Shown: positions 1,599 to 63,467 of the stretch, one piece after another
Layout of the letters: every line of letters starts with the position of its first letter
Numbering within the stretch: position 1 is the first letter of the stretch
Assembly: GCF_000319575.2 (NCBI RefSeq)
Contig: NC_021291.1
Location: 1,488,001-1,552,000 of the forward strand
Source of the DNA: Spiribacter salinus M19-40
GTDB lineage: Bacteria; Pseudomonadota; Gammaproteobacteria; Nitrococcales; Nitrococcaceae
Length of the DNA: 64,000 nucleotides
Direction: 5' to 3'
Program-made: the position numbers and the translations under genes
Notes under the pieces: model-generated
The model's input: the letters and a program-made list of their open reading frames with translations, nothing else
What the model was told of the DNA's origin: nothing
Databases searched by the model: none

Positions 1599-3095
1599 CT
1601 AGACATCGCGAAACAGTCGGACACCACGGCGCCGCAGCAGCGTGCCGATCAGCAGCAGGGCGGCGCTGCCGCCCGCCATTGGCCAGTCTCGCCAACGCAT
1701 GTAGGGCGTCATTCCCTGGCGGGGCACCACCTCGCCCTCGATGACCGCGGCCTCGAACAACGGTCCCTGGTCGCTCACCTCGCCCTGCGCGTCGATCAGG
1801 ACCGACACCCCCGTGTTCGTCGCCCGAATCATCGGCCGGGCCGTCTCCACGGCACGCATTCGGGCCATCTGCAGATGCTGCCAGGGCGCAGCGGTCTGCC
1901 CAAACCAGGCATCGTTGCTGACGTTCAGCAGGATCTCGGCGCCAGGTAAGGCATCCAGCACCTCGGTGCCAAACGTCACCTCGTAGCAAATACTCACCCC
2001 CACCGCATGCCCGGCCGCGCGCAACGGCTCGGCCGAGCGCCCGGCACTGAAATCACCCAGCGGCGTGCCGACAAAATCCAGAATGCCGCCGGCAATGGCC
2101 CGAAACGGCACATATTCCCCAAACGGTACCAGATGGCGTTTGTAGTAGAACTGGGTGTCCTCGCCGGGCACCGCAACGGCGTTAAAGAGCCCCTCACCCG
2201 CCGGGTCGGCTGCGGGTGTTCCCAGGATCAGCGTGCTCCCGGCCCCTTGCGCATCCGCTGCCAGTGTCTCGAGCCAGTCCTCGACTTGTTGATACACCGC
2301 CGGGACCGCCGTTTCCGGCCAGACAATGAGAGATTGCCCCAGCACGGCGCGGCTCTTAGACAGATACTCCGAGAGAATGTCGGCACTCTCGTCCGGGTCC
2401 CATTTGCGCGACTGCGCCACATTCCCTTGAATAATCGAGACCGACAGGGGGTCGCCGCTTGGCACACTCCATGTCCGATCCAGCACGAAACCGGCCAGCG
2501 TAAAGACCCCCAGCATAAGCACCGGCGCCAGCAACCGCAGCGACAAGGGCCGCAGGAACCACCAGGCCAGTGCGCCCGCCACCAGCGCAACCGCCAGGCC
2601 CGGACCGTACACGCCAAACACCGGCGCCAGCGCCGCCAGCGGAGTATCAATCTGGGTGTAGCCAATGCTCAGCCAGGTTGCCCCGGTGAACAGCCAGCTC
2701 CGCACCCACTCCACCAGCACCCAGGCCGCTGGTAAGCCCATCAGCACCATGCAGGTCGAATGCCGGCGCATGGCGCGCCAGCCCAGCAGCAGCGCGAGCA
2801 TGGGAATCAGGGCAAAGAGGGCGACCAGCACACCGGTGGCAATGGCACCGGCCAACGGCCCGCCGCCATAATTCGCAATGCTGTGATAAATCCAGTAGAC
2901 ACCCAGGCCCGCAAAACCCAGGCCAAACAGATAACCCGGCAAAAGCACCTGCCATGGCCGCTGCGCCGGGGCGATCAAGGCAAAAATGACGGCTAGCCCA
3001 AGCACCGGTGCCCAGGCCTGACCATAGGGTGCGAATCCAAGGGGCAGCAAAAGACCCGCCGCGAGGGCGAGGGCCACCCGCAGCGTCATCATCAT
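1599..3095 (-). CDS. lnt: Apolipoprotein N-acyltransferase
   Basis: This inner-membrane enzyme adds the third acyl chain to the N-terminal cysteine of lipoproteins, completing their maturation. The 498-residue protein starts with several hydrophobic segments (about residues 5-190), followed by a periplasmic nitrilase-like domain and a final membrane helix near residue 475. The catalytic Glu-Lys-Cys triad is visible in WPETAVP, YYKRHLVPFGEY and SICYEV. Its ATG overlaps the corC stop by four bases (ATGA), so translation is probably coupled. It is the last gene of the miaB-phoH-ybeY-corC-lnt operon. Confidence 0.97.
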   Translation of the reverse strand: MMMTLRVALALAAGLLLPLGFAPYGQAWAPVLGLAVIFALIAPAQRPWQVLLPGYLFGLGFAGLGVYWIYHSIANYGGGPLAGAIATGVLVALFALIPMLALLLGWRAMRRHSTCMVLMGLPAAWVLVEWVRSWLFTGATWLSIGYTQIDTPLAALAPVFGVYGPGLAVALVAGALAWWFLRPLSLRLLAPVLMLGVFTLAGFVLDRTWSVPSGDPLSVSIIQGNVAQSRKWDPDESADILSEYLSKSRAVLGQSLIVWPETAVPAVYQQVEDWLETLAADAQGAGSTLILGTPAADPAGEGLFNAVAVPGEDTQFYYKRHLVPFGEYVPFRAIAGGILDFVGTPLGDFSAGRSAEPLRAAGHAVGVSICYEVTFGTEVLDALPGAEILLNVSNDAWFGQTAAPWQHLQMARMRAVETARPMIRATNTGVSVLIDAQGEVSDQGPLFEAAVIEGEVVPRQGMTPYMRWRDWPMAGGSAALLLIGTLLRRRGVRLFRDV

Positions 3096-3973
3096 TCGAC
3101 CAGCGCCTCTGCGGCTTCCTCTTCGTCGCCCGGCATCACCTGCAGCAGGTGCAGTCGGCGGCTGTCAGCGCGCAGCACCTCGAAGCGAAGGCCTTCGAGC
3201 TCAAGCGCCTCACCGCGCCGGGGCATATGGCCAAAGCCATTGGCAACGAGGCCGCCGATGGTGTCGAACTCCTCGTCACTCAGCCGGGTGTCGAAGTGTT
3301 CATTGAACACCTCGATGGGGGTAAGCGCCTTGACCACGGTGCGACCGTCATCACTGCGGTTAAGCACCCAGGTGTCCTCATCAAGATCGTGCTCGTCATC
3401 AATTTCGCCGACGATCTGCTCGATGACATCCTCCATGGTCACAATCCCGGCCAGGCCGCCATATTCATCCACCACGATGGCAAGATGATTACGCGATTCC
3501 TGAAAGAGCTTGAGCAAGGCATCCAGGCGCTTGCTCTCGGGGATGAACAGCGCCGGGCGGAGCAACTCGCGCAGGCGAAACTCCCGCTGCTCCTGTGGAT
3601 CAAGATAAGGCAACAGATCCTTGGCAATGAGAATGCCGATGACGTCATCACGGCTATCGCCAGTGACCGGAAAGCGAGAGTGGCCGCTTTCGATGATGGT
3701 AGGCAGCAAATCCCAGACGGATTCGGAGCGCGGCAGCAACGAGGCCTGCGAGCGCGGCACCATGATCTCGCGGACTTGCAGATCCGCGACATTCAGCACG
3801 CCCTCGCACATGGACAGCACATCGGCATCCAGCACACCGCGATGATGGGCCGATCGCAGGGTATGCAGCACCCCCTCACGATTCTCGGGTTCCCGCCCCT
3901 TCAGTGCCTGCGCAATCTTCTCCAGCCACGTCCGATGGCTGGCGCTGGTACTCCCCGGTTGATCCTCGCTCAT
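3092..3973 (-). CDS. corC: CorC/HlyC-type CBS-domain protein (YbeX)
   Basis: This is a 293-residue CBS-pair protein with a C-terminal CorC_HlyC domain. The family has been linked to magnesium/cobalt efflux, and in Escherichia coli (YbeX) also to ribosome metabolism, so the exact role is uncertain. The CBS pair follows IMVPRSQ (about residues 65-190). The C-terminal domain contains DTIGGLVANGFGHMPRRGE. There is no membrane segment. The start at 3973 is chosen because GGAG lies just upstream and the protein then begins MSEDQ, like the E. coli MSDD. An earlier ATG at 4003 inside ybeY lacks such a signal. Confidence 0.93.
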   Translation of the reverse strand: MSEDQPGSTSASHRTWLEKIAQALKGREPENREGVLHTLRSAHHRGVLDADVLSMCEGVLNVADLQVREIMVPRSQASLLPRSESVWDLLPTIIESGHSRFPVTGDSRDDVIGILIAKDLLPYLDPQEQREFRLRELLRPALFIPESKRLDALLKLFQESRNHLAIVVDEYGGLAGIVTMEDVIEQIVGEIDDEHDLDEDTWVLNRSDDGRTVVKALTPIEVFNEHFDTRLSDEEFDTIGGLVANGFGHMPRRGEALELEGLRFEVLRADSRRLHLLQVMPGDEEEAAEALVE

Positions 3974-34942: not shown

Positions 34943-36133
34943 TTACTCGAGGATCTTGGCGACGACGCCGGCACCCACGGTGCGGCCGCCCTCGCGCACC
35001 GCAAAGCGCAGGCCCTCTTCCATGGCGATCGGCGCAATCAGCGTGACCGTCATCTGCACGTTATCACCCGGCATCACCATCTCCGTGCCCGAGGGCAGGT
35101 CACAGGCACCGGTAACATCGGTCGTGCGGAAGTAAAACTGCGGGCGGTAGCCATCAAAGAACGGCGTATGACGGCCGCCCTCGTCCTTGCCCAGCACATA
35201 GACCTCGCACTCGAACTTCGTGTGCGGGGTGATCGAGCCGGGCTTGCACAGCACCTGACCACGCTCGACGTCATCACGCTTGGTGCCGCGCAGCAGCGCA
35301 CCGATGTTATCCCCCGCGCGCCCCTCATCGAGCAGCTTGCGGAACATCTCCACACCCGTGACCACGGTCTTGGTCGTGTCCTTCATGCCCACGATCTCGA
35401 CCTCTTCGCCGGTCTTCACAATGCCGCGCTCCACGCGACCCGTGACCACCGTGCCGCGCCCGGAGATCGAGAACACATCCTCGATGGGCATCAAAAAGGC
35501 CCCATCCACCGCGCGCTCAGGCTCGGGGATGTAGGCGTCCATCGACTCCACCAGCTTCACAATGGCCGGGGCGCCCATGTCCGAGGTATCCCCCTCGAGC
35601 GCCTTCAGCGCCGAGCCGGTGGTGATCGGAATATCATCACCCGGGAAGTCGTAGTCGCTCAGCAGCTCGCGGACTTCCATCTCGACGAGCTCGAGCAGCT
35701 CGGCATCGTCAACCATGTCCGCTTTGTTCAGGAACACCACCATCGCCGGCACGCCCACCTGGCGCGCGAGCAGGATGTGCTCACGGGTCTGGGGCATCGG
35801 GCCGTCCGCGGCGGAGACCACCAGAATGGCGCCGTCCATCTGCGCGGCACCGGTGATCATGTTCTTTACATAGTCCGCGTGACCAGGGCAGTCCACGTGG
35901 GCGTAGTGCCGGTCCGTGGTCTCGTACTCCACGTGCGCCGTGGCAATCGTAATACCGCGCTCGCGCTCTTCCGGGGCGTTATCAATCTGCGCAAAATCCT
36001 GCGCCACACCACCGAACTGCTCGGCCAGCACCTTCGTCAGCGCCGCGGTCAACGTCGTCTTACCATGGTCAACATGACCAATGGTGCCAACGTTTACATG
36101 CGGTTTATTACGCTCAAACTTCTCCTTGGACAC
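34943..36133 (-). CDS. tufA: Elongation factor Tu (intact copy)
   Basis: This GTPase delivers aminoacyl-tRNA to the ribosome. It has the full 396 residues. The G domain has [15 protein letters not shown] and NKADMVDD, followed by both beta-barrel domains. The start codon is GTG at 36133, with AAGAGG upstream. It is the last gene of the str operon. It is the only intact tuf gene in this window, because the tufB copy at 51.3-53.0 kb is disrupted. The last ~425 bases differ from the tufB remnant at only four positions by eye, which suggests recent gene conversion. Confidence 0.98.
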
Positions 36134-36188
36134 GGCTCACCTCTTACCCGTCAAATACCTAAAATCGTTTATCGACCGAGCCTCTGGC

Positions 36189-51292: not shown

Positions 51293-52642
51293 TTACTCGA
51301 GGATCTTGGCGACGACGCCGGCACCCACGGTGCGGCCGCCCTCGCGCACCGCAAAGCGCAGGCCCTCTTCCATGGCGATCGGCGCAATCAGCGTGACCGT
51401 CATCTGCACGTTATCACCCGGCATCACCATCTCAGTGCCCGAGGGCAGATCACAGGCACCGGTGACATCGGTCGTGCGGAAGTAAAACTGCGGGCGGTAG
51501 CCATCAAAGAACGGCGTATGACGGCCGCCCTCGTCCTTGCCCAGCACATAGACCTCGCACTCGAACTTCGTGTGCGGGGTGATCGAGCCGGGCTTGCACA
51601 GCACCTGACCACGCTCGACGTCATCACGCTTGGTGCCGCGCAGCAGCGCACCGATGTTATCCCCCGCGCGCCCCTCATCGAGCAGCTTGCGGAACATCTC
51701 CACACCCGTGCCCACGGTCGTCGTATCCGCATCCTTGTTGCTGTCACCCACCTCAACAATGATCTGCGAGTTCTGGGTGGTCGCTCCCGCTTTTTTAAAC
51801 GACTGCGACTCGAAGGCCGCACTCAGGCCTGAGTCGGTGTCGACGTCGCGCATCCCGAAAGTGACATCCTTGGTGATATTGAGATCGCTACCAAGGCGCA
51901 CATCCTCAACGATCACGTTCTCGTCGCTGTCGTCCGACCAGAACTGCTCAACACTGTCCATGCGGCCAGCATCCAGCGTGACGTCCTCATCCATACCCGT
52001 GATGTAAACCTGCTCGAGGTTGTCAGTGCGCGGGTTGACAGTGAGGCCCTCGCCATTCTGCGTCTGGTTGTCGTTCACCAGTGTCGCTTCAAGCTTGTCA
52101 GTGCCCTCACCGCCGTCGATAACATCACCGGTGGACAGAGCGTTGGTGCTGGCGCCTTCGCCATTCTGCTGAACCTCAGCAGTGAAGGTGTTGTCTTCGT
52201 CAGTGCCCGTGAGATTGTCAACATTTGTAGTAAGCGTAAAAGTCTCACCCGGGGTGCCGGAATCTTCTTCCGACTCCTCGTCGCCGACACGGTTATCGCT
52301 AGCAATTGTGGTGAACTGCTCGAGTGTCGTGTCCGGGTCTTCGTCGTATGCTGTCTGGTGAGCCTCGACCACGGTCTTGTTGTTAGCGAACGTCGTGGCA
52401 GAGATCAGGTCGCCCTGATTCGTTTCCGCCTCTTCCAGGAACGCCCCGCCAAAAGTATCGGCAGTGAGGTCGCCTGACGCCAGCTTCCCGACCCAGTAGT
52501 CGATACGGGCCTGGGCATTGTTCATGGTGTCTGCGTCGGTGTAGCCGAGCAGGTCCTCGTAGGCCGTTTTGACAATAGCTTCGTTGTCTTGACCGTCAAT
52601 AGCGGTAGCAAACAGCTCGCTGATATCTTCGTAAAGGGACAT
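51293..52642 (-). CDS. Chimeric ORF: acidic S-layer/RTX-like N-terminus fused in frame to the EF-Tu C-terminus
   Basis: This 449-codon frame begins [17 protein letters not shown] at 52642, with a strong AGGAGG upstream. Codons 1-135 are an acidic helical region that loosely resembles DUF4214-type modules. Codons 136-308 are an acidic beta-rich segment, 98-99% identical at DNA level to the start of the gene at 57.6 kb. From 51719 the frame passes into EF-Tu residue about 257 ([12 protein letters not shown]) and ends at the normal EF-Tu stop. It keeps EF-Tu domain III and part of II but no G domain, so it cannot act as EF-Tu. Whether the chimera is made or stable is unknown. It sits in the normal tufB place. 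Confidence 0.8.
51720..52236 (-). repeat. 517-bp inverted repeat, left arm
   Basis: This arm matches 57583-58099 in opposite orientation, over equal length without gaps. Seven mismatches were counted by eye (two adjacent ones change Gly to Asn; most others are silent). It encodes codons 136-308 of the chimera. One edge coincides exactly with the EF-Tu junction and the other with the end of the unique N-terminal part. Confidence 0.93.
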
Positions 52643-52784
52643 TGATAGTCCTCCTGTTGACAATTTTACGATTCCAATCTTATGGGACGTCCAAAGCTAT
52701 GCCGACACTCCCCACGACGATCCACCGGTATCGTCTCGAAAGCCTTGTACCGGATGACAAGCATCTCAGTCAAGCGTTCGCACA
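52643..52784 (-). promoter_or_regulatory. Upstream region carried with the S-layer-like N-terminus
   Basis: These 142 bases lie between the tufB remnant and the MSLYED start and do not match tufA. They end with a strong ribosome binding site, CAGGAGG. A/T-rich stretches TAAGAT and TAAAAT are possible -10 elements, but no well-spaced -35 was found. The region probably came in with the S-layer-like gene and could carry its promoter. Confidence 0.45.
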
Positions 52785-52995
52785 CGTACTCCACGTGCGC
52801 CGTGGCAATCGTAATACCGGGCCCGCGCTCTTCCGGGGCGTTATCAATCTGCGCAAAATCCTGCGCCACACCACCGAACTGCTCGGCCAGCACCTTCGTC
52901 AGCGCCGCGGTCAACGTCGTCTTACCATGGTCAACATGACCAATGGTGCCAACGTTCACATGCGGTTTATTACGCTCAAACTTCTCCTTGGACAC
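52785..52995 (-). pseudogene. tufB: tufB 5' remnant (EF-Tu residues 1-70)
   Basis: The first 70 codons of a second EF-Tu gene follow tRNA-Thr, with a GTG start at 52995 and GGGAGG upstream. The P-loop GHVDHGKT is intact. In switch I, EERERG has become EERGPG, a change not in tufA. After VEY the match stops at 52785, and the frame continues through unrelated sequence to 52666 (109 residues in total). EF-Tu codons about 71-256 are missing, and the 3' part is found in the chimera at 51293-51719. This is the canonical tufB locus, now disrupted. Confidence 0.92.
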
Positions 52996-53432: not shown

Positions 53433-54629
53433 ATGCCCGTAACCGCTGGCTCGATTCAACAGACCGAACAGGCGGCGACGCCTTACACCGGTGTTGTCAG
53501 TGTTGCGACGGACCGCGGCCAAGGCACCGGGACGCTGCTCTACGATGGCCGCGCCGTGCTCACCGCCGCCCATATCCTGGAGGGCAGCGGCCCCCTCACG
53601 CAGGCCTCCGCGCAGTTCACCACGCCGGAAGGCAGCTTCCGGCAGGGGTTCGAGAAGTACTCAATCCACCCCAACTACGACGCCGGTAATAACAACTACG
53701 ATCTCGCCCTGCTGTGGTTTGACGAGCCGGTGTCGGCCGCGGCAACGCGCCATTCGCCCTACCGACTGGACAACGAAAACCGCGCCACGGTCGACATGCT
53801 CGGCTACGGCGTCACCGGCACAGGCGAGGACGGCTACACCGTGCCGTCCAATAACGTGCGCCGGTTGGTCGAAAACCGGTTGGAGACCGATGCCGCGACG
53901 TTAAAGGCCACGCTCGGCGATCGCATGGGCTGGGACCCGGCGCCGGGAGAGCAGCTCGTCGCCGATTTTGACAACGGCCAGGATGCCAACGACGCGCTGG
54001 GGCAGCTGATCAACCAGTCCGGCCTGGGGCTCGGCGAGACCGAGGGGCTCATTGCGCCAGGCGATAGCGGCGGCCCCGCCTTGATTAATGGCGCGGTCGC
54101 CGGCGTTGCCAGCTACACCGCCTCGCTGTCCACGCCAACCACCCAGCCGGATGTCAATGCCACAGGCGACTCCAGCTACGGCGAGATCGCGGGCTTTCAG
54201 CGCGTGTCCTCCAACCAGCAGTGGATCGATCAGTCGCTGCGGGCCGAATACCCCAACGCGCCCCAGTCCCCCGATGAGGTCTCCACCACGGTGGTCGAGG
54301 GCGACAGCGCCAGCACCTATGCCTACTTCATGCTGTCGTTTGATGGCGATCGGGACACGCCGGACGAGCTGCTCAGCGTTGACTACCGCACCGAAGACGG
54401 CACCGCCGAGGCCGGCCAGGACTACATTGCCGCAGAAGGCACGCTGATCCTCTACCCCGGCGAGACCGAGGCCGTTATCCCGGTCGAAGTGCTGAGCGAT
54501 AACCTCGTCGAAGGCAACGAGACCTTCTCGTTAAGCGTTTACGACCCCGTGGGCGGGGATTTTGGCGAGGGCGTGGAAGAGCTCACCGCCACCCGCACCA
54601 TCATCGATGACGACGGGATGATGGTGTAG
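53433..54629 (+). CDS. Trypsin-like serine protease with C-terminal Calx-beta domain
   Basis: This 398-residue protein has an S1 chymotrypsin-fold domain (about 18-265). The triad is visible as LTAAHILEG (His), NNYDLALLWF (Asp) and APGDSGGPAL (Ser). A Calx-beta domain follows (about 285-390), with DGTAEAGQDYIAAEGTL and DNLVEGNETFSL. There is no N-terminal signal peptide, so if exported it probably uses a C-terminal (type I) signal; this is inferred from the neighbours. It is transcribed away from tRNA-Tyr. The start has only GAGG upstream. Confidence 0.85.
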   Translation: MPVTAGSIQQTEQAATPYTGVVSVATDRGQGTGTLLYDGRAVLTAAHILEGSGPLTQASAQFTTPEGSFRQGFEKYSIHPNYDAGNNNYDLALLWFDEPVSAAATRHSPYRLDNENRATVDMLGYGVTGTGEDGYTVPSNNVRRLVENRLETDAATLKATLGDRMGWDPAPGEQLVADFDNGQDANDALGQLINQSGLGLGETEGLIAPGDSGGPALINGAVAGVASYTASLSTPTTQPDVNATGDSSYGEIAGFQRVSSNQQWIDQSLRAEYPNAPQSPDEVSTTVVEGDSASTYAYFMLSFDGDRDTPDELLSVDYRTEDGTAEAGQDYIAAEGTLILYPGETEAVIPVEVLSDNLVEGNETFSLSVYDPVGGDFGEGVEELTATRTIIDDDGMMV

Positions 54630-54644
54630 GCGAGCGGCACTGCC

Positions 54645-54839
54645 TTACGCGTCGGCGGGCAGCTCGCCCTGCAGGGCCCGCGCATAGGCCTGGCGCGCGG
54701 TCTGCGCAATCGCCAAGCGCTGCTGGAGCCGTGCGATTTCCTGATCGGTGATCTGGATATTCGTCAACTGACTTTTGGCGGCCTCGGACAGAGTGTCGAG
54801 ATCGTATTCTTTGCCATCAATGGTGATCGGGTTGGCCAT
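54645..54839 (-). CDS. Small protein, DUF6447-like
   Basis: This 64-residue protein starts MANPITIDGKEYDLDTLSEAAK at 54839, with AAGGAG just upstream. A TTG five codons earlier is less likely. The middle is a helix with regular Gln/Leu/Ala (DQEIARLQQRLAIAQTARQAY), probably a short coiled coil. I recall this family as DUF6447, of unknown function, but could not check. It ends 15 bases from the convergent protease gene and lies 75 bases downstream of the recombinase genes. Confidence 0.7.
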   Translation of the reverse strand: MANPITIDGKEYDLDTLSEAAKSQLTNIQITDQEIARLQQRLAIAQTARQAYARALQGELPADA

Positions 54840-54914
54840 GCGTTGCTCCTTCAAGGCGCTGCGTTCACGTTAAAGCCCGCAGTGTAGCGCGCCCGCCCCC
54901 GCCCCGTCAGCCGA

Positions 54915-56111
54915 TCACCCCGGCGTACCCAGCGCACCGGCCACACTGTTCGCCGCCCGCAGTAGCGTCTCCGGGGCCAGGTGGGCATAGCGCATGGTCA
55001 TCTTCGGGCTCTGGTGGCCTAGCAGCGCCTGGACCTCGTAGAGCGAGTGACCGGCGTTGACCAAAAAGCTCGCAAACGAGTGGCGCAGATCGTGCAGGCA
55101 CACATCGGGCAGGCCCGCCCAGCGGCGGACCGCATCCCATCCGGCATGCAGCGAGACGATGGGCTCGCCCGTTTTGGGGTTGGGAAACACCCAGGGATTA
55201 CCCGGCCGGCGAGGCTGGGCGTTCACAATGTCCATAGCCGCTTGCGACAGCGGGATGTGCCGCGTGTAGCCCGACTTCGCGCGCGGCACCGTCAAAATGC
55301 AGCGCTCAAAATCGATGTGCTCCCAGCGCGCATCCAATATCTCCCGCTTTCGCGCCCCGGTGTACAACAACATCCGCGCCACAATCGCCAGCTGCGGGCT
55401 GCGGCTGCGATCAAGCGCGTCAAACAGGCGCTGGACCTCGGCCGAGGTCAAAAACCGCTCGCGGCGGACCTCACCTTTCATGGGTTTAAGCCCCCGGCAG
55501 GGGTTACTGCCCTCGGGCAGGATCTCCCAGCGGATCGCTGCGTTAAAGATCGTGCGCATGTGGATGAGCAGCCGATTGCACGTACCCACGGCCATTCCCT
55601 CGGCGCGTGTGGTTTGCTGCATCGCGAGGATGTCCGCGCGATGGATCTGGTCCAGCGGCAAGGTGCCAAAGCGCGGCATGAGATGCCGGCTGATCTGTGA
55701 TTTGGTGCTCGGCCAGCTGCGATTGTTGATGCGCACATGCGGGAAGTAGTGCTGCTCTACAAATTCATCAAACCGCAACACCTTCGAGCGCTTTTGCGTG
55801 ACCGATGTCGGGTCGTCCCCCGCGGCCAGGGCCGCACGCATCGCCTTCGCCTGCTTGCGGATGCTATTGACCGCTACGCTGTCCAGCCGCCCGATGTGCT
55901 TGAGCCGCAGGCGCTTGTCGTTATCGCGATATCGGAAATACCACGTGCCGGTCCCGCTGGCACGCAGTTCAAGCATGAGCCCTTTAATCGATTCATCAAA
56001 GAAGGCCACCGCACCGCTTTGCGGCAGATGGCGCTGCACGTCCCGCACGAACGCGGGGCTGAGCTTCACAACCGGCAACTGTTTATCACTCCACGATTTA
56101 CCCCCCCCCAT
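54915..56111 (-). CDS. Tyrosine recombinase/integrase, P4-like (copy 1)
   Basis: This is a site-specific DNA recombinase. The N-terminal arm-binding region has GLMLELRASGTGTWYFRYR. A core-binding region follows, then a catalytic domain with Arg in LLYTGARKREIL, HDLRHSFAS, LGHQSPKMTMRYAHL and the nucleophile Tyr. All catalytic residues are present, so it should be active. The start is unsure: ATG at 56111 has no binding site, while TTG at 56078 has GGAG and would align with the start of copy 2. It directly follows copy 2, so the two are probably co-transcribed. Confidence 0.85.
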   Translation of the reverse strand: MGGGKSWSDKQLPVVKLSPAFVRDVQRHLPQSGAVAFFDESIKGLMLELRASGTGTWYFRYRDNDKRLRLKHIGRLDSVAVNSIRKQAKAMRAALAAGDDPTSVTQKRSKVLRFDEFVEQHYFPHVRINNRSWPSTKSQISRHLMPRFGTLPLDQIHRADILAMQQTTRAEGMAVGTCNRLLIHMRTIFNAAIRWEILPEGSNPCRGLKPMKGEVRRERFLTSAEVQRLFDALDRSRSPQLAIVARMLLYTGARKREILDARWEHIDFERCILTVPRAKSGYTRHIPLSQAAMDIVNAQPRRPGNPWVFPNPKTGEPIVSLHAGWDAVRRWAGLPDVCLHDLRHSFASFLVNAGHSLYEVQALLGHQSPKMTMRYAHLAPETLLRAANSVAGALGTPG

Positions 56112-56169
56112 GTGAGGGGGCACATGCGGATCATATACAAGCTGCCAAAGCTTGCATAGACAGCCCAAC

Positions 56170-57342
56170 TCACTTTACCGCCGTACCCCGGCCTGCGCCG
56201 ACCGCCACCACCTCGGCGGCATCCTGGAGCGAGGACTGCGATAGGTGCGCATAGCGCATCGTTGTCCGCGGATTGGCGTGCCCCAGCAAGGCCTGGACTT
56301 CATAGAGCGACCGGCCGGAGTTCACCAAAAAGCTGGCGAAGGAATGGCGCAGGTCGTGCAGCCGAACATCCGCCAAGCCCGCGCGGTGGCGGATCGTGTT
56401 CCAGGCATTAAAGATCGAGACCAGCGGTTGGCCGGTTTTTGGGCTCGGGAACACCCAGGGGTTCTGGTCAGTCCGGAACTGGCGGTTGATCACCTCCAGC
56501 GCCGCCGAAGAGAGCTGGATATAGCGCGGCTTTCCCGACTTTGAGCGGGGCACCGTCAGAATACCCCGCTCGCGGTCGATGTGCTCCCACCGGGCATCCA
56601 GCACTTCACGCTTGCGTGCGCCGGTAAAGATTAGCAAATGGATGATATCCGCGACCATTCGGCCGGCGTAATCATCCAGCACAGCAAGCAGCCGCTCGAG
56701 CTCAGCGTCTGAGAGATACCGCTCACCATGCGCTGCTCCCTTAAGCGGCTTCACGCCCTGAGCGGGGTTGGTATCTTTCGGGATCACCTCCCAGCGGATC
56801 GCGCAGTTGTAGATATGGCGCAGGAGCACGAGGATCCGGTTGCAGGTGCCCACCGCGTAGCCATTGGCGTGCGTTTGCTCGTGCCAGCGCATTACATCCA
56901 TGCGCGAGACCGCGGATAACGGTTGGTGCCCAAACGCAGGCAGGACATGGTGATCCAGCAGGGCCTGCTCCGGCGCCCACGCGCGTTTGCGGGATTTGGC
57001 GTGGGGAATGTAGTGGACCTGGACGAAGTCGCGCAGCGAGGTATCCGAGGCAACCTCGGCCCGGGCATCTTCCACCGGGTCATGGCCCTCACGCACCTGC
57101 TGCATAAATGAGAGAGCGGCCGCCCGCGCCTCGTCCACCGAGCGCTGGTGCACACACCCAATGCGTTTCATCCGCACCCGGCCCGAGCGTGCCCGATAAC
57201 GATAGTACCAGGTGGCATTGGCACTGGGGCGCACCTCGAGCATCAGCCCTTGAGTGACCTCATCATGGAAGCTACGGGTTTTGGGCGGCGGCGCCCCTAA
57301 AATCTGGTGTACTGCCTGACGGGAAAATGTGACAACAGCCAT
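56170..57342 (-). CDS. Tyrosine recombinase/integrase, P4-like (copy 2)
   Basis: This 390-residue recombinase is a paralogue of the next gene downstream, with the same domain order: GLMLEVRPSANATWYYRYR, then FTGARKREVL, HDLRHSFAS and LGHANPRTTMRYAHL with the nucleophile Tyr. The catalytic set is complete. The ATG at 57342 has a strong AAGGAGG; the frame extends 23 codons further without signal. The start faces the right inverted repeat arm, 240 bases away, so its promoter and possible target sites lie in that gap. Confidence 0.9.
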   Translation of the reverse strand: MAVVTFSRQAVHQILGAPPPKTRSFHDEVTQGLMLEVRPSANATWYYRYRARSGRVRMKRIGCVHQRSVDEARAAALSFMQQVREGHDPVEDARAEVASDTSLRDFVQVHYIPHAKSRKRAWAPEQALLDHHVLPAFGHQPLSAVSRMDVMRWHEQTHANGYAVGTCNRILVLLRHIYNCAIRWEVIPKDTNPAQGVKPLKGAAHGERYLSDAELERLLAVLDDYAGRMVADIIHLLIFTGARKREVLDARWEHIDRERGILTVPRSKSGKPRYIQLSSAALEVINRQFRTDQNPWVFPSPKTGQPLVSIFNAWNTIRHRAGLADVRLHDLRHSFASFLVNSGRSLYEVQALLGHANPRTTMRYAHLSQSSLQDAAEVVAVGAGRGTAVK

Positions 57343-57582
57343 TGATGCCTCCTTGCAAACCGAGGCGTGGTAGGTGGTTGGTAGGCAAAACCCAACCAAG
57401 CACCTCACCACCCCCGCTCGTTAATTTATTGAACTTTCAGCCGCTTACGGCCAACCCATCCTATAACCGGGCATCCTAGCCCGACCATTTTGGTAGGTAT
57501 TTGGTATGTGCCGCCGGAAATGCGGCGAAAATCGACTTTTAACTGCTTGAAACAAAGTAGGTTTGATTAAACCGTACTTGTC
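57343..57582. promoter_or_regulatory. Repeat-rich gap between the recombinase gene and the right arm
   Basis: These 240 bases hold no gene. TTGGTAGG occurs twice in the same direction (57378-57385 and 57490-57497), and TTGGTA again at 57501. An imperfect inverted repeat (GGTGGTTGG / CCAACCAAGCACC) lies at about 57373-57403, and GGTTTGATTAAACC and GCCGC/GCGGC palindromes follow. The A/T content is higher than around it. These features fit recombinase arm or core sites, or the recombinase promoter, but neither role is shown. Confidence 0.4.
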
Positions 57583-58099
57583 CGCTTACTACGAATGTTG
57601 ACAATCTCACGGGCACTGACGAAGACAACACCTTCACTGCTGAGGTTCAGCAGAATGGCGAAGGCGCCAGCACCAACGCGCTGTCCACCGGTGATGTTAT
57701 CGACGGCGGTGAGGGCACTGACAAGCTTGAAGCGACACTGGTGAACGACAACCAGACGCAGAATGGCGAGAACCTCACTGTTAATCCGCGCACTGACAAC
57801 CTCGAGCAGGTTTACATCACGGGTATGGATGAGGACGTCACGCTGGATGCTGGCCGCATGGACAGTGTTGAGCAGTTCTGGTCGGACGACAGCGACGAGA
57901 ACGTGATCGTTGAGGATGTGCGCCTTGGTAGCGATCTCAATATTACCAAGGATGTCACTTTCGGGATGCGCGACGTCGACACCGACTCAGGCCTGAGTGC
58001 GGCCTTCGAGTCGCAGTCGTTTAAAAAAGCGGGAGCGACCACCCAGAACTCGCAGATCATTGTTGAGGTGGGTGACAGCAACAAGGATGCGGATACGAC
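57583..58099 (+). repeat. 517-bp inverted repeat, right arm
   Basis: This is the partner of 51720-52236 in opposite orientation, ending at the common GATACGAC. It encodes the first part of the headless gene. Upstream of it the two loci share nothing. Confidence 0.93.
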
Positions 58100-60420
58100 C
58101 ACGCCGGTCGAGCGCATTGAGCTTGAGTTGAACTTTACCTTCGGCGGTGAGGCATACAGCTTCGAGTCGATCACCTCCGAGGATGGCACCTATCAGGGGC
58201 TGGCCACGGCCATTGAGTCGGCGCTGTCCGCTGAGGGCCTTGACGGTGTGGACTCGACGGTCATCGAGACCAACCTCGTGCTCGATAACGCCGGCCGGGG
58301 TTCCACGGCAGGTGATGCGATCATCGGCGGTATGTCCGACTCGGATAAGACCATTGAGAAGCTGAACCTCGTGGTCGATCGCGACAGCAAGATCGATGAT
58401 CTCGCCACGGCTTCCGGCATGGAAGACAACGCGTTTAATAGCGCTGGCTACGAAGGCTTCAGCGAGATCGAGCTGACTTCGGGCGATGCTGAGGGTGATC
58501 TGTCCGTCGAAGATATTCAGGGCACGACCAAGTTTGATGCCTCGACCTTCGCTGGCGAGAGCCTGACGATTAACGCAGCCAGTGCACTGGAGAAGCTCGA
58601 CGCTAATGTGGCGGCGGATGTGGATGTCACCGCCAGCACGGCTGCGGGCGAGAATGTTTACACCACGGGCGCCGGCAGCGACACGCTGACCACCACGGTG
58701 GACGGTAATGATGTCGATACGGTCGGTGAGAGCTTCGCGGCAAGCACCAACGGTGGCGACGACACAGTTGTGATTGATATGGATGATGGCGTGTCGTTCG
58801 ACACCATGGAAGAGCTCGACAACCTGTCGGTTTCCACCGGTGCGGGTGATGATACGGTCAACCTCGACGCCTACGGCACGTTCGACATCTCCACGGGTGA
58901 TGGTAGCGACTTCGTTCGCATCAACTCCGTTGGCGATAACGGTGACGCCACTGCTGGCGAGTGGAGCATCGGTGATGAGACCGGCGCCCAGAGCTTTGAC
59001 GAGCGTGTGCTCTACGAGGCGAGCCTGACGGTTAACTTCGCGGGCATCGAGGAGACGGTGGACGTTGAGACGGATCGGGATGGCAACTTCATCGCGACCC
59101 AGACCGACATCAACACCGCCGTGAAGGCGGCCATTGATGGCAACCACGAGCTGAGCGATCTGCTCAACTACGAGGATGGCACGGGCGATCAGTCGCTCAC
59201 GATCACCTCCAACGTGGGCGGTGTTAACAACCTCGGCATCGCCATCTACCAGCCAGAGCTTGTTGAAGAGGCGTCGACCGGAGAGGCCGCTGGTCAAGAT
59301 GTGGCGCTCGCCGAGGGCGATGTCGCCGCGATCCGTGGCGGACTGATCAGCACGGAGGAATTCAATAGCGCTGACTCTGACGACACCACGGTGGCCAACA
59401 TTGTGGATGCCACCAGCGACGATAACTTCCACGGCTCGCTTAATGCTTCGGGGGCCGGTGATGAGGTGCTGCAGTCCACAGCCGATATCGAAGGTGACGT
59501 GACTGAGGGCGTTAATGCGGCTGACACCGCAGGCGGTATCTTCCAGGATGCCACCAACACCTACTTCGACCTGCAGGCGGGTGGATCGAGCAACAGTGAT
59601 GATGGCTCGATTAACCTGTCCTCGGTGAACGTGGGCGATGGCAGCAACGACATCGTCTCGGTGCACTCGGGTAACGCGAGCGCCAACACGCTGGTGGTCG
59701 ACGAGGCCTTCGGTAAGGTCACGGTGGTGAACTGGCACAAGGTCTCGCCGGATGACGTCGATAATCGGGACGAGATGGGTGAACATGCGCTCGACTTCTC
59801 GGCCTACCTTGACGACCAGGTCGACGACTCGGATAACGACAACGCCGACACGGCGGCCGAGGTGGCGGCCAGCGCGAACATGGTGGCGGGCGCCTCGGCG
59901 CTGGGCACTGCTGTGAGCGCCGGTCTCGATAACGACAACACCGCCAGGGCGAACTCGGTTAACTCCATTCGCTTCGAGCAAAACCTCGCAGACGGTGAGA
60001 CCTTCGGGGCACTCGACGGCGACACCCTGCTCACGGCGCTGAACGCGAGCGACGCGGACGACGAGTACGGCAACCTCAATGATGCCCTGCTCAACCCGGG
60101 CACCACGGCGGATCTGGTGGGTGATACGCAGAACCACATCGTGATGGTCGAGAACGACCTGAACGAAGGTGAGTACAAGGTGTTCCACCTGACTTCTGAG
60201 TCCGACGCTGATGATTTCAGCACGGCCGATGAGCTCGGTACGCTCGACTTCGGGGCCTCCATTAACTTCAACGTGGCAGGTAGCACGACGTTCAAGAACT
60301 ACGTCGAGGCCGCGAGCCAGGCGAAGGATGAAGGGGCAACGGACTTCACCTACGACGTTGTCGACTCCGGTGGCAATGTGGTGGCGACGGCTGATGCTGA
60401 CGTCAACGACGGTACCGGGG

Positions 60421-60533
60421 ACGCTGGCGGTGCTGGCGGCGGTGCTGGCGGAGCTGGCGGCGGCGGTGCTGGTGCTGGCGGCGGTGCTGGTGCTGGTGGA
60501 GCTGGCGGCGGCGGAGCTGGCGGCGCCAGCGAG
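60421..60533 (+). repeat. Gly/Ala-rich coding tract
   Basis: Repeats of GGCGGTGCTGGC-type units encode runs of Gly and Ala, a flexible linker between the beta-rich body and the last ~110 residues. Such tracts may change length by slippage. Confidence 0.8.
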
Positions 60534-60888
60534 ACCGTCGAGGTCACTGGTGCGGGCAACGACGATGCCGCTAACGCCGACGTTACCTTCGACTTCGACG
60601 ATGGCGCCTACGAGTTCGAGATCGCCAACTTCGACACCGGCGACACGCTCGACTTTGGGGACGTCCAAGGGGCGGACCAGGCGATCTTCAACGTGGCCGC
60701 GGATGCGAACCTGGGTGATGGCGAGAAACAGCTATCCGCCGCGAATGGTGACACCGGGGACACGGTCGAGGTGACTCTAACCGGTCTGACAGCTGCGCAG
60801 GACAACGCAGTGTTCAATCAGTCGAGCTTCGAGAACACCTTCGGCGACGATAGTCTCGTGCTGTAGGGCTTGTAAGCAGTGGCGTATG

Positions 60889-60914
60889 GCCCCGCGTCCT
60901 AAGCGGCGCGGGGC
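60889..60914 (+). other. Intergenic hairpin between the two large acidic genes
   Basis: A perfect 8-base stem, GCCCCGCG/CGCGGGGC with a 10-base loop, lies 22 bases after the first gene. No U tract follows, so termination is not clear. It could stabilise mRNA ends or attenuate read-through. Confidence 0.5.
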
Positions 60915-60962
60915 ACCTCCCAGAGACAACCAGGTTTTATCAAGTAAAGGGAAACTAAGATC

Positions 60963-63467
60963 ATGGCTAAGACATTCCTCAACGCCGACGAAACGTTCAT
61001 CGTTGCCAATAACGGCAGCGAAATCGTAGGCGGAAACGGTAACGAGACCATCCAAATCAATTCGGGCATCACCGGCCTCGAGCTCGATGGCAACATTGAG
61101 AAGGTCGAACTCAACAATTTAGCAGCCGCTGACGTTGAGCTTCGTGTGAACAACAGCAACCAGCTGGAGTTTGTGAACGATGGCAACGTGGTTGCGACCG
61201 CTACGGCTGGGCTTAACTCGGCCGTTGATGTTGCTTTCAGTGATGGCAATGCAACGCTGACACAGACGGGTGGAGCGAGCTACACCCTCGCCGATCCGGA
61301 CGACGACACCGATTCTGTGACGGTTGATGCCAATAACTCGCAGGACGGCAACGCGGTCGGCCTCGGTGACGAAACGTCCTCCGACGATGACGGTGGTGGC
61401 GACACCGGGAACATCTTCACGCTCACTACTGATGCGGACACCCTGTCGCCTAATGCTTCATCCACCGCAAATCAGACGAGTGACGATGACGACAGATTCC
61501 GTGCGCCAGAGGATGGCCGGTTGACTACTGCGGATTTCATTGACGCAGGGGATGGGTCTGACACGCTTACCGCAGCGGTCACAAATGCCGCTAACCTGGT
61601 GGTTGCGCCGGAGCTAGTGTCGGTCGAAGAGTGGTATGTCACCCCGACCACAGCCGCTGGTGAGGATGTGGAAATTTCCGGCGCTAATGTAACCGGGCTG
61701 CAGCAGCTCTGGGTGCAGGATGCCGTCGACGCTGACACTAGCGATGACGCCGACGAAGAAATCAACCTCACTAATATCGGCACGGATGTGACCGTCGGCA
61801 TCGAAGGTGGAACGGTTGACAACACAGATGGCAACACCATTGACGTGACCGTAGCATTCACTGGCGTGGCGGGCGCATCTGACTCTGCTTCGGTAGCGTT
61901 GAAGGATGCGGCGGCAGACACAGTGACGGTTGCTAATATCGAGACCTTGAATGTCTCCGAGACGGGTTCCGATGCTACGAGCGATATCGAGACCCTCGTT
62001 CTCGATAGCGCGGAAACCGTGAATGTCAGCTCCACTGGTGAGGGCGTAACCGTGGACGCAGTCACAGCCGGCAATCTGGAGACAATCGACGCATCGGCTT
62101 CCAGTAGTGCGGTTGATTTAAACGTGGACGGAGCCAGCGCCAACACGACATTCACCGGTGGTGACGGCGACGATGTCATCGACTTTGGAACCACCAATAT
62201 TTTCGATGCTGACGACAGCGTTAGCGGTGGCGAGGGTGCTGACACTCTTGGCATTGATGACGAAGAGGCTGCCACAACCGAGGCTTACACCAACATCTCT
62301 GGCTTTGAGGTGCTTCGGGTTAACACCGCTACTACTGCGGGAGACACCATTAACTTGGCGCATTGGGGTGGAATCACTGATGTTACCTTCGCTGCTGCCG
62401 CTGCTGCTACAACGACGGTTGAGAACCTGACCTCAGGTGCGACGGTCGCTCTTGCAGATACGTCTGGCGTTGATCTCGACCTTGAGACAAACGGTGACAG
62501 TGACACGTTGAACCTCGATTTGAATGGTGGAGGTGTGACGTACACGGTCGATGCCGCAAACGTCGAAAACCTCAACGTCAACACCGATGGCGCAACCGGG
62601 ACTTCAACCCTTGCCCTGACTAATGCGCAGCTAGAGACAATTAGTCTGTCTCAGACAGCCGCTACGGATCAGGCTGTTGATCTTGGCACGCTTGGAACAG
62701 TAGTGGAGACGGTTGATCTGTCCGGCTTCGATGCCGATACCCAGACAAACGGTGTAACGGTGGCTTTGAGTGCTACTGCTGTGAACGGGGTTACCGTGAC
62801 CGGTTCGTCAAATGACGACACGATCACGGCGAGTTCCGAGGTTGATACCATCAACGCCGGGGTAGGCGCTGACGCCATCACGGTTGGTGGTGCGCAGGAT
62901 ACCTTCGATGTTGGAGACGACGACGACGTCGACAATATCACCGTTGGCGATACGGATCTGACGAACGCCAATCAGTTCACGGTGAAGAACTTCAACGCAA
63001 CCGGTACAGGCGTTGATACGTTGTCAATTGATGAGGCTACTAACCTTGACACTAATGGCGGTGGCGATATTACTGACGGTCTTGGGGCTGGGGAACTCCA
63101 GTCAGTGACGACTTCAGCAACTGCCTACACCATCGCAGCCGCCGAGGCAGCCATAGAGTTCGCCTTCGAGTTCGACAGCGAAGTTGACCTCGATACGGCT
63201 AGCAAGAGTGACATCCTCGGCGCAATCGGCGCGGCGGATGACGGCACGGATTCGTCTACGACCGCGGGCACCATCACTGCTGACAATGCCGCTGACGCAG
63301 TGCTCATGATTGCGTATCAGGACGGCAATGCTTATCTCTTTGAAGGAGATGCTGGTACGGGTGACACTGCCATCGGTGACGATACAGGCGGCAACGATGA
63401 CATCTCCCTGGTGGGTGTTCTTGAAGATGTCGAAGTTGGGGCGCTGTCCGACGCTAACTTCGCCTAA
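60963..63467 (+). CDS. Acidic beta-repeat S-layer/RTX-like exported protein
   Basis: This 834-residue protein starts MAKTFLNADETFIVANNGSE at 60963. It has no cleavable signal peptide and almost no basic residues. From about residue 155 it contains the same kind of segment as the neighbouring gene (IFTLTTDADTLSPNA, then FIDAGDGSDTLTAAV). RTX-like stretches GGDGDDVIDFG and VGDDDDVDNITVGD follow. The body is beta-strand repeats rich in Thr, Val and Asp, as in S-layer proteins exported by type I systems. It is complete, with its own terminator. A role as surface protein is inferred; no type I transporter is in the window. Confidence 0.85.
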   Translation: MAKTFLNADETFIVANNGSEIVGGNGNETIQINSGITGLELDGNIEKVELNNLAAADVELRVNNSNQLEFVNDGNVVATATAGLNSAVDVAFSDGNATLTQTGGASYTLADPDDDTDSVTVDANNSQDGNAVGLGDETSSDDDGGGDTGNIFTLTTDADTLSPNASSTANQTSDDDDRFRAPEDGRLTTADFIDAGDGSDTLTAAVTNAANLVVAPELVSVEEWYVTPTTAAGEDVEISGANVTGLQQLWVQDAVDADTSDDADEEINLTNIGTDVTVGIEGGTVDNTDGNTIDVTVAFTGVAGASDSASVALKDAAADTVTVANIETLNVSETGSDATSDIETLVLDSAETVNVSSTGEGVTVDAVTAGNLETIDASASSSAVDLNVDGASANTTFTGGDGDDVIDFGTTNIFDADDSVSGGEGADTLGIDDEEAATTEAYTNISGFEVLRVNTATTAGDTINLAHWGGITDVTFAAAAAATTTVENLTSGATVALADTSGVDLDLETNGDSDTLNLDLNGGGVTYTVDAANVENLNVNTDGATGTSTLALTNAQLETISLSQTAATDQAVDLGTLGTVVETVDLSGFDADTQTNGVTVALSATAVNGVTVTGSSNDDTITASSEVDTINAGVGADAITVGGAQDTFDVGDDDDVDNITVGDTDLTNANQFTVKNFNATGTGVDTLSIDEATNLDTNGGGDITDGLGAGELQSVTTSATAYTIAAAEAAIEFAFEFDSEVDLDTASKSDILGAIGAADDGTDSSTTAGTITADNAADAVLMIAYQDGNAYLFEGDAGTGDTAIGDDTGGNDDISLVGVLEDVEVGALSDANFA

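Follow-up and report, generated by a model that had tools for sequence, protein, structure and literature searches.

The tandem tyrosine recombinases int1 and int2 of Spiribacter salinus M19-40 belong to an integrase branch that probably recombines at a short core inside S-layer-like genes (S genes), and at this locus the recombination would take the form of a shufflon-like inversion exchanging C-terminal cassettes. The window, i.e., the whole stretch of 64,000 nucleotides analyzed here, covers bases 1488001-1552000 of a genome consisting of a single contig of 1,739,487 bases. In the proposed mechanism, the surface protein has a fixed N-terminal part and, beyond the core, a C-terminal cassette that can be replaced. 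The integrase of mobile relatives would insert a prophage or small element at the core and thereby supply a new 3' end; the host surface protein would gain a new C-terminal part, while the old one would be parked beside the integrase. In the window, the integrase pair adjoins the presumed parked cassette S1C, which faces the other cores in inverted orientation. Because the cores are inverted and no element is recognizable, recombination would invert the DNA between them and exchange cassettes, joining another cassette to an expressed 5' end, much like a shufflon. We infer that int1 and int2 act at the core and that inversion continues; its purpose would perhaps be to evade phages or grazers or to alter the surface.

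If correct, this mechanism provides a concrete candidate crossover site and candidate enzymes for variation of S-layer-like proteins, as well as a link to temperate phages, whose integration would remodel the host surface. In addition, start-less "hypothetical" fragments beside integrases could be explained as parked cassettes. A literature search covering titles and the opening lines of abstracts, largely outside subscription journals, returned no integrase acting in an S-layer gene of Pseudomonadota.

The recombinase pair int1/int2

The initial annotation had described two tandem paralogous tyrosine recombinases with a full catalytic set and the same domain order, and this description holds. 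Both genes are intact open reading frames on the minus strand: int1 (54915..56168) encodes 417 aa from a TTG start, and int2 (56170..57411) encodes 413 aa from a GTG start, with an internal ATG at 57342 that coincides with the end assigned to the gene initially. The proteins are 46% identical in a six-row alignment, and the DNA copies are 62% identical across 1116 nt. Both score above the curated cut-offs for PF00589 and PF13356 (Arm-DNA-bind_3), with 45.2 and 45.4 bits for PF13356 against a cut-off of 27. The N-terminal arm DNA-binding domain PF13356 places them with P4-type integrases, and PF00589 with the R-K-H-R-H-Y set places them in the tyrosine recombinase/phage integrase family; both also match the integrase family phrog_1. 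The motifs TGAR, KSG, HDLRH, LGH, and RYAH, which we take to carry the catalytic residues, are intact in both. The whole genome contains four PF00589 matches.

One congener, G008, carries an orthologous pair at this locus, with 66% identity for int1 and 57% for int2. The values obtained are dN 0.29, dS 1.28, and dN/dS about 0.22 for int1, and dN 0.39, dS 1.51, and dN/dS about 0.26 for int2; since both dS values are near saturation, the ratios are rough. Both genes thus show signs of purifying selection, as judged from the sequences, and a constraint near 0.25 favors use over decay. Given the orthologous pair and the low dN/dS, the pairing is not due to chance. In a tree of 81 rows, the window pair is placed with the corresponding G008 genes, the four forming one group (100/96), so the duplication is older than the split of the two species.

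It is very improbable that the two enzymes constitute a directional switch, one turning it on and the other off, or an obligate heteromer, as had been suggested initially. The paralogues do lie side by side in the same order in two species, their duplication predates the split, both are constrained, and a second tandem pair exists in another locus (L096). However, 34 of 38 close relatives have a single integrase in the fetched stretches, among the matches listed, so a pair appears not to be needed; moreover, of the three congeners with an integrase of this branch, one (G001) carries a single copy. The L096 pair occupies positions 509-1660 and 2284-3162 of a short Methylococcaceae contig with little upstream sequence.

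Inverted arms, surface genes, and the candidate core

The inverted arms noted initially are real. They span 51717..52243 (minus) and 57576..58102 (plus), each 527 nt long and 98% identical to the other. The recombinases are tied to these arms, which start at the apparent recombination core. The int-proximal core CTTACTAC (codons L-T-T; 57585..57592, plus) is where the left-arm homology begins, with ACTT upstream of it at 57576-57579. The second core CTTACTAC (52227..52234, minus) is inverted relative to the first and lies in S1N, where its codons sit within the motif E-T-F-T-L-T-T. S1N is an S-layer-like gene 5' part (51720..52642, minus) that runs from an ATG at 52642 through the core into the arm and continues in frame into the 3' end of tufB. 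S1C is a 3' part without a 5' part of its own, open from the core to the stop (57585..60866, plus). Apart from a few bases, S1N and S1C are homologous only from CGCTTACTAC onwards.

The neighboring gene S2 (60963..63467, plus) is a complete S-layer-like gene of 834 aa, as seen from its reading frame and the repeat comparison, with its core CTCACTAC at 61422..61429 (plus). This core is the end of a 1.85-kb repeat (59584..61429, plus), which comprises the end of S1C and the upstream region and N-terminus of S2. The repeat is 94.7% identical to an inverted copy at the N-terminus of S3 (genome 1562867-1561048), a gene on the minus strand outside the window. Homology between S2 and S3 stops at CTCACTAC (61429 and genome 1561048). 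Beyond the core, the repeat comparison shows no DNA repeat between the two genes, and at the protein level the similarity is only 27% over 540 aa, in a shifted register. In this respect, the surface-gene cluster is laid out like a shufflon: it contains four cores (at 52234, 57585, 61422, and, for S3, genome 1561055), and S2 and S3 have a common 5' part up to the core and differ thereafter. A truncated copy of the S1C end also precedes S3 (L065 9023-10872, corresponding to 73023-74872 in the window frame), mirroring the S1C–S2 arrangement; the copies of the S1C end at S2 and S3 represent a large inverted duplication around the surface-gene cluster.

The sequence CTYACTAC or a close variant, encoding L-T-T of "TFTLTT", is the probable crossover site, because the arms begin there and the 1.85-kb S2/S3 repeat ends there. 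The S1 arms break on one side of the core and the S2/S3 repeat on the other, so breakpoints are present on both sides. The same arrangement recurs in congeners. In G001, a 452-bp copy of the core-proximal part of the S gene lies upstream of the integrase and begins at CGCTCACTAC; in G008, the integrase-side frame and the S gene (core near 1939612) are alike only from the core onward. An origin of the arms and the S2/S3 repeats through RecA-dependent homologous recombination or gene conversion, with the recombinases present by coincidence, is quite improbable. The lengths of 527 nt and 1.85 kb would suffice for homologous recombination, and S-layer genes of Campylobacter fetus are exchanged via homologous repeats. 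Against this, the S1 arms, the S2/S3 repeat, and the G001 stub all have a homology edge at one and the same 8 bp, and the integrase-side frames of other genomes start at or near the core.

The left half of the putative switch is broken into tufB. The gene is split at 51293-52995, and between its 5' and 3' parts lies a piece of about 1 kb carrying the upstream region of S1, its N-terminus, and the arm; in comparison with G008, 1.05 kb stands in place of about 0.54 kb of tufB. The in-frame fusion of S1N with the EF-Tu C-terminus forms a 456-aa ORF. A second tuf gene at about 34950-36140 is an open frame of 397 aa. The fusion looks accidental and could be an assembly error or a one-off event. The break into tufB counts against a switch, as does the fact that a single orientation is known at the window cores, from one genome of the species. 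Recombination between 52234 and 57585 would invert 5.35 kb and convert S1 from a truncated tufB fusion into a full-length gene. In G001, tufB looks degraded as well (C1:1680738-1681449, L061): the 3' part alone precedes the tRNA cluster, and the remnant contains a 197-bp direct duplication (99.5%).

Between the cores at 52234 and 57585 lie the tufB pieces, tRNAs, a protease gene, a DUF6447 gene, and the two integrase genes. The trypsin-like protease with a Calx-beta domain (53433..54629, plus) is possible cargo of uncertain membership; homologues occur at the same locus in G008 (58%) and between integrase and core in a Rhodocyclaceae locus (L082, 52%), and in L104 the protease is matched in two pieces in different frames. 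The DUF6447 gene (54645..54854, minus), whose membership in the system is likewise uncertain, is also found in L060, L067, L084, L086, L090, L098, L104, L163, and L274. Among PHROGs, both genes match only families of "unknown function", and weakly. As the initial annotation had stated, no phage gene is recognized between the arms by Pfam or PHROG matches, which speaks against a plain prophage, and the cores are inverted rather than direct. A tRNA island was also rejected: since the core lies in S genes, the target is not among the tRNAs of the tufB cluster.

"S-layer-like" is used here as a description of the S genes and does not imply S-layer function. S1N, S1C, and S2 have no Pfam match, and S3 matches RTX repeats and Calx-beta without DUF4214. 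In other genomes, DUF4214 is present in all nine scanned S genes that include the 5' part (two of which end at the edge of the fetched stretch), and RTX repeats occur in six of the nine. For a Halomonas DUF4214 protein, an S-layer-like anchor is suggested in an excerpt of PMC11970703.

Integrase relatives and their probable target genes

Scans yielded at least 77 loci from genome contigs and at least 80 from viral contigs. The 2.5 kb upstream of each integrase was examined for a divergently oriented frame of 100 aa or more whose composition is S-layer-like; loci with 2 kb or more of upstream sequence were counted, and the 44 of 157 loci below that were left out. Among the matches listed, 20 of 22 loci with scores of 295 bits or more have such a head-to-head frame, compared with 2 of 7 between 262 and 295 bits and 0 of 84 below 262 bits (Fisher 1e-19, kinship ignored). 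On the 81-row tree, the label is clustered, with 9 changes compared with 24.1 in shuffles, and does not form one clade. The frames in other genomes begin at or near the same core spot: the core lies at or near the frame start in 16 of the 20 S-positive close relatives, again among the matches listed. Two of the 22 close relatives (L093 and L095) and L099 are without an S frame, L087, L091, and L164 have the frame but no clean core, and the L090 frame is an entire gene that possesses a start of its own. For a Pseudosulfitobacter plasmid match (35%), no S-layer gene is listed near the integrase.

Many loci contain a small gene between integrase and core that by eye looks like a helix-turn-helix regulator. 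HTH_3 is matched in two of three tested genes (G001 and G043); the third, from the plasmid element, has no Pfam match and hence no HTH_3. The window has no small regulator-like gene in this position. Two further arrangements were observed: two successive integrase-regulator-cassette units in Polynucleobacter (L087), and a complete S gene flanked by two integrases in an Oxalobacteraceae MAG (L090).

The pattern TTYACNCTYACTACNA has five matches, spread over 4 of the 14 congeneric genomes scanned, compared with 0 for the reversed control; by position, all five matches are S-gene cores, and the pattern misses S2 of the window genome. Codon usage was assessed at 21 integrase-adjacent sites, comprising 16 of the 20 S-positive close relatives together with L081, L102, the window genome, G001, and G008 (L087, L090, L091, L164, L101, and L108 were left out). 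As these sites were picked by their amino acids, only the choice of codon counts as a test. The first core codon (L) is CTC in 17 of 21 sites, with 3.9 expected from the same frames, and the second (T) is ACT in 17 of 21, with 5.1 expected; the corresponding probabilities of about 1e-9 and 8e-8 assume independent sites, which these, sharing ancestry, are not fully. For the full-gene sites (n=12), no statistic is claimed, since five were located by a regular expression containing CTCACT after a degenerate pattern had found the genes. An IMG/VR scan for further full-gene cores found only the contig already known.

The bases preceding the core at the 21 sites mostly differ between species, apart from A-C-T at -9 to -7 (17, 16, and 19 of 21). 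The close relatives L082, L159, and L160 have more pre-core sequence in common. In L086 and L102, the pre-core bases resemble the TFT codons of the full gene, so the frame is not cut exactly at the core there. Inverted half-site symmetry peaks at the expected center, but 78 of 1000 column shuffles are as good; this symmetry is weak and is not relied on. The core motif alone does not imply the enzyme: in the congener G012, a complete S gene contains the core, and no integrase of the branch lies beside it. In a further MAG (G042 C33:1-150; L258, L276), the contig ends about 134 bp past the S-gene core, as if the assembly had broken at alternative cassettes in the population.

An S-gene 5' part with a core was found on the same contig in eight cases, four with direct and four with inverted cores. 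In the direct layout, a prophage or small element lies inside the S gene and carries a replacement 3' end. The cores of Tepidimonas ignava are 47.1 kb apart and enclose a tailed prophage with genes for holin, endolysin, tail, tape-measure, tail-sheath, head, and terminase proteins; the layout had led us to expect, before the sequence was fetched, an S gene in direct orientation at the far end (an unrecorded expectation), and it was then found. In the viral contig G054, the distance is about 55.8 kb; the interval encodes tail, primase, and annealing proteins, and the S gene is cut off by the contig end. The remaining direct cases are Noviherbaspirillum aerium (L097; about 8 kb) and the Pseudomonas plasmid pA62H2 (7.7 kb, including a VapE-domain gene). 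The inverted layout is seen in the window genome (5.35 kb, with S1N fused to tufB), G001 (3.2 kb), G008 (about 21.6 kb, provided that the record is circular), and G043 of the Rhodocyclaceae (about 30 kb). The inverted layouts of the three congeners may represent one inherited state and not repeated switching.

Uninterrupted S genes are present in 3 of 10 other Tepidimonas genomes, all three matched at the core; the other seven have no match there and are uninformative. The N-terminal part of the uninterrupted genes is 69-77% identical to that of T. ignava. Beyond the core, the displaced cassette scores above the phage-borne one in all three, at low identities (29-49% for the displaced cassette). 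A search for the empty site of the Pseudomonas plasmid element matched only the plasmid itself. In Vreelandella lionensis (L098/L104, NZ_MWVI01000086.1), two integrase-core-cassette units with some similar genes lie in the same orientation, their cores 16.9 kb apart; this looks like stacked integration and an archive of former C-terminal parts.

Since the four located relatives with direct cores are integrated elements, int1 and int2 may be leftovers. They would then be the remnants of one or two integrative elements that were stacked at the S-gene core and decayed, with nothing switching now; the protease may be what is left of their cargo, and the S gene would have been dispersed by rearrangements that followed. 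The relatives in the Tepidimonas prophage, the phage contig, and the VapE element on the plasmid are consistent with such a history, as are the two units in V. lionensis, the protease homologue between integrase and core in L082, and the accidental look of the tufB fusion. Nevertheless, this history is unlikely: both integrases have stayed intact in two diverged species, at a dN/dS near 0.25; neither phage nor replication genes are recognized between the arms; simple integration does not give inverted cores, which three congeners have; and exchange inside the cluster is indicated by the S2/S3 breakpoint at the core.

The preferred reading, a shufflon-like inversion at the window locus, can be extended tentatively to the branch as a whole, which may use the codon motif of S genes as its att site and swap C-terminal halves, the pair in this genus being a switch. 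The branch spans phages, plasmid-borne elements, and chromosomes, mainly of Pseudomonadota. Each integration would amount to a lysogenic conversion of the S-layer, perhaps excluding competing phages, and older C-terminal versions would stay as an archive beside the integrase. The duplicated pair would have been kept by the host as a switch for surface-protein shuffling.

Comparison with known systems

FimB and FimE of the E. coli fim switch are about 200 aa long, lack an arm domain, and invert a promoter. The resemblance to them, which the initial annotation had invoked, is confined to the presence of two adjoining tyrosine recombinases. In contrast, int1 and int2 are twice as long, possess an arm-binding domain, and score 20.5-24.8 bits with the NCBIfam DNA-invertase models NF007370 and NF007371, far under the cut-offs of 221-222. 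An invertase of the FimB/FimE type was rejected because of length, domains, and these scores. The earlier interpretation is thus retained as regards the link between arms and recombinases and the lack of recognized phage genes, and not supported as regards FimB/FimE kinship and the need for a pair.

With P4-type, prophage, and island integrases, int1 and int2 share the domain order (PF00589 and PF13356) and the PHROG integrase family. Kinship with island integrases, which the initial annotation had named as the finding that would overturn its view, is borne out in part: close relatives include integrases encoded by a tailed prophage and by small elements with direct cores. It does not extend to the site: the att site lies in a surface-protein gene whose 3' end is exchanged, and in the window the cores are inverted instead of direct, with no prophage recognized and no larger island between them. 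A partial precedent is given by phage 21 and e14, which restore the 3' end of icd on integration. The S-gene elements likewise bring a replacement 3' end of the target gene; unlike in icd, the C-terminal part that they bring to the large surface protein is diverged, so that the product is altered.

Variation of a surface protein through DNA rearrangement is also common to the sap system of Campylobacter fetus and the Vpma/Xer1 system of Mycoplasma agalactiae. The sap S-layer switching relies on long homologous repeats, which sets it apart from the window. It is named in the excerpt of PMC11852207. In the Vpma system, as far as the excerpt of PMC5634654 describes it, the Xer1 recombinase acts on lipoprotein genes, and this differs from the window as well.

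Among the systems described in the sources, as far as their excerpts go, the R64 shufflon is the nearest mechanism. It consists of the recombinase Rci, the sfx sites, and PilV, and its sites have a conserved core and right arm and a variable left arm (PMC11852207, excerpt). The window differs in that its recombinases have an arm-binding domain and phage or element integrases as relatives, the putative target is S-layer-like, and no compact repeat array of the sfx type is seen. What the two have in common is a tyrosine recombinase adjoining interchangeable C-terminal segments of a surface protein, a conserved core and right arm next to a variable left arm, and a crossover within coding DNA, which in the window would fall at the L-T-T codons of the S genes.
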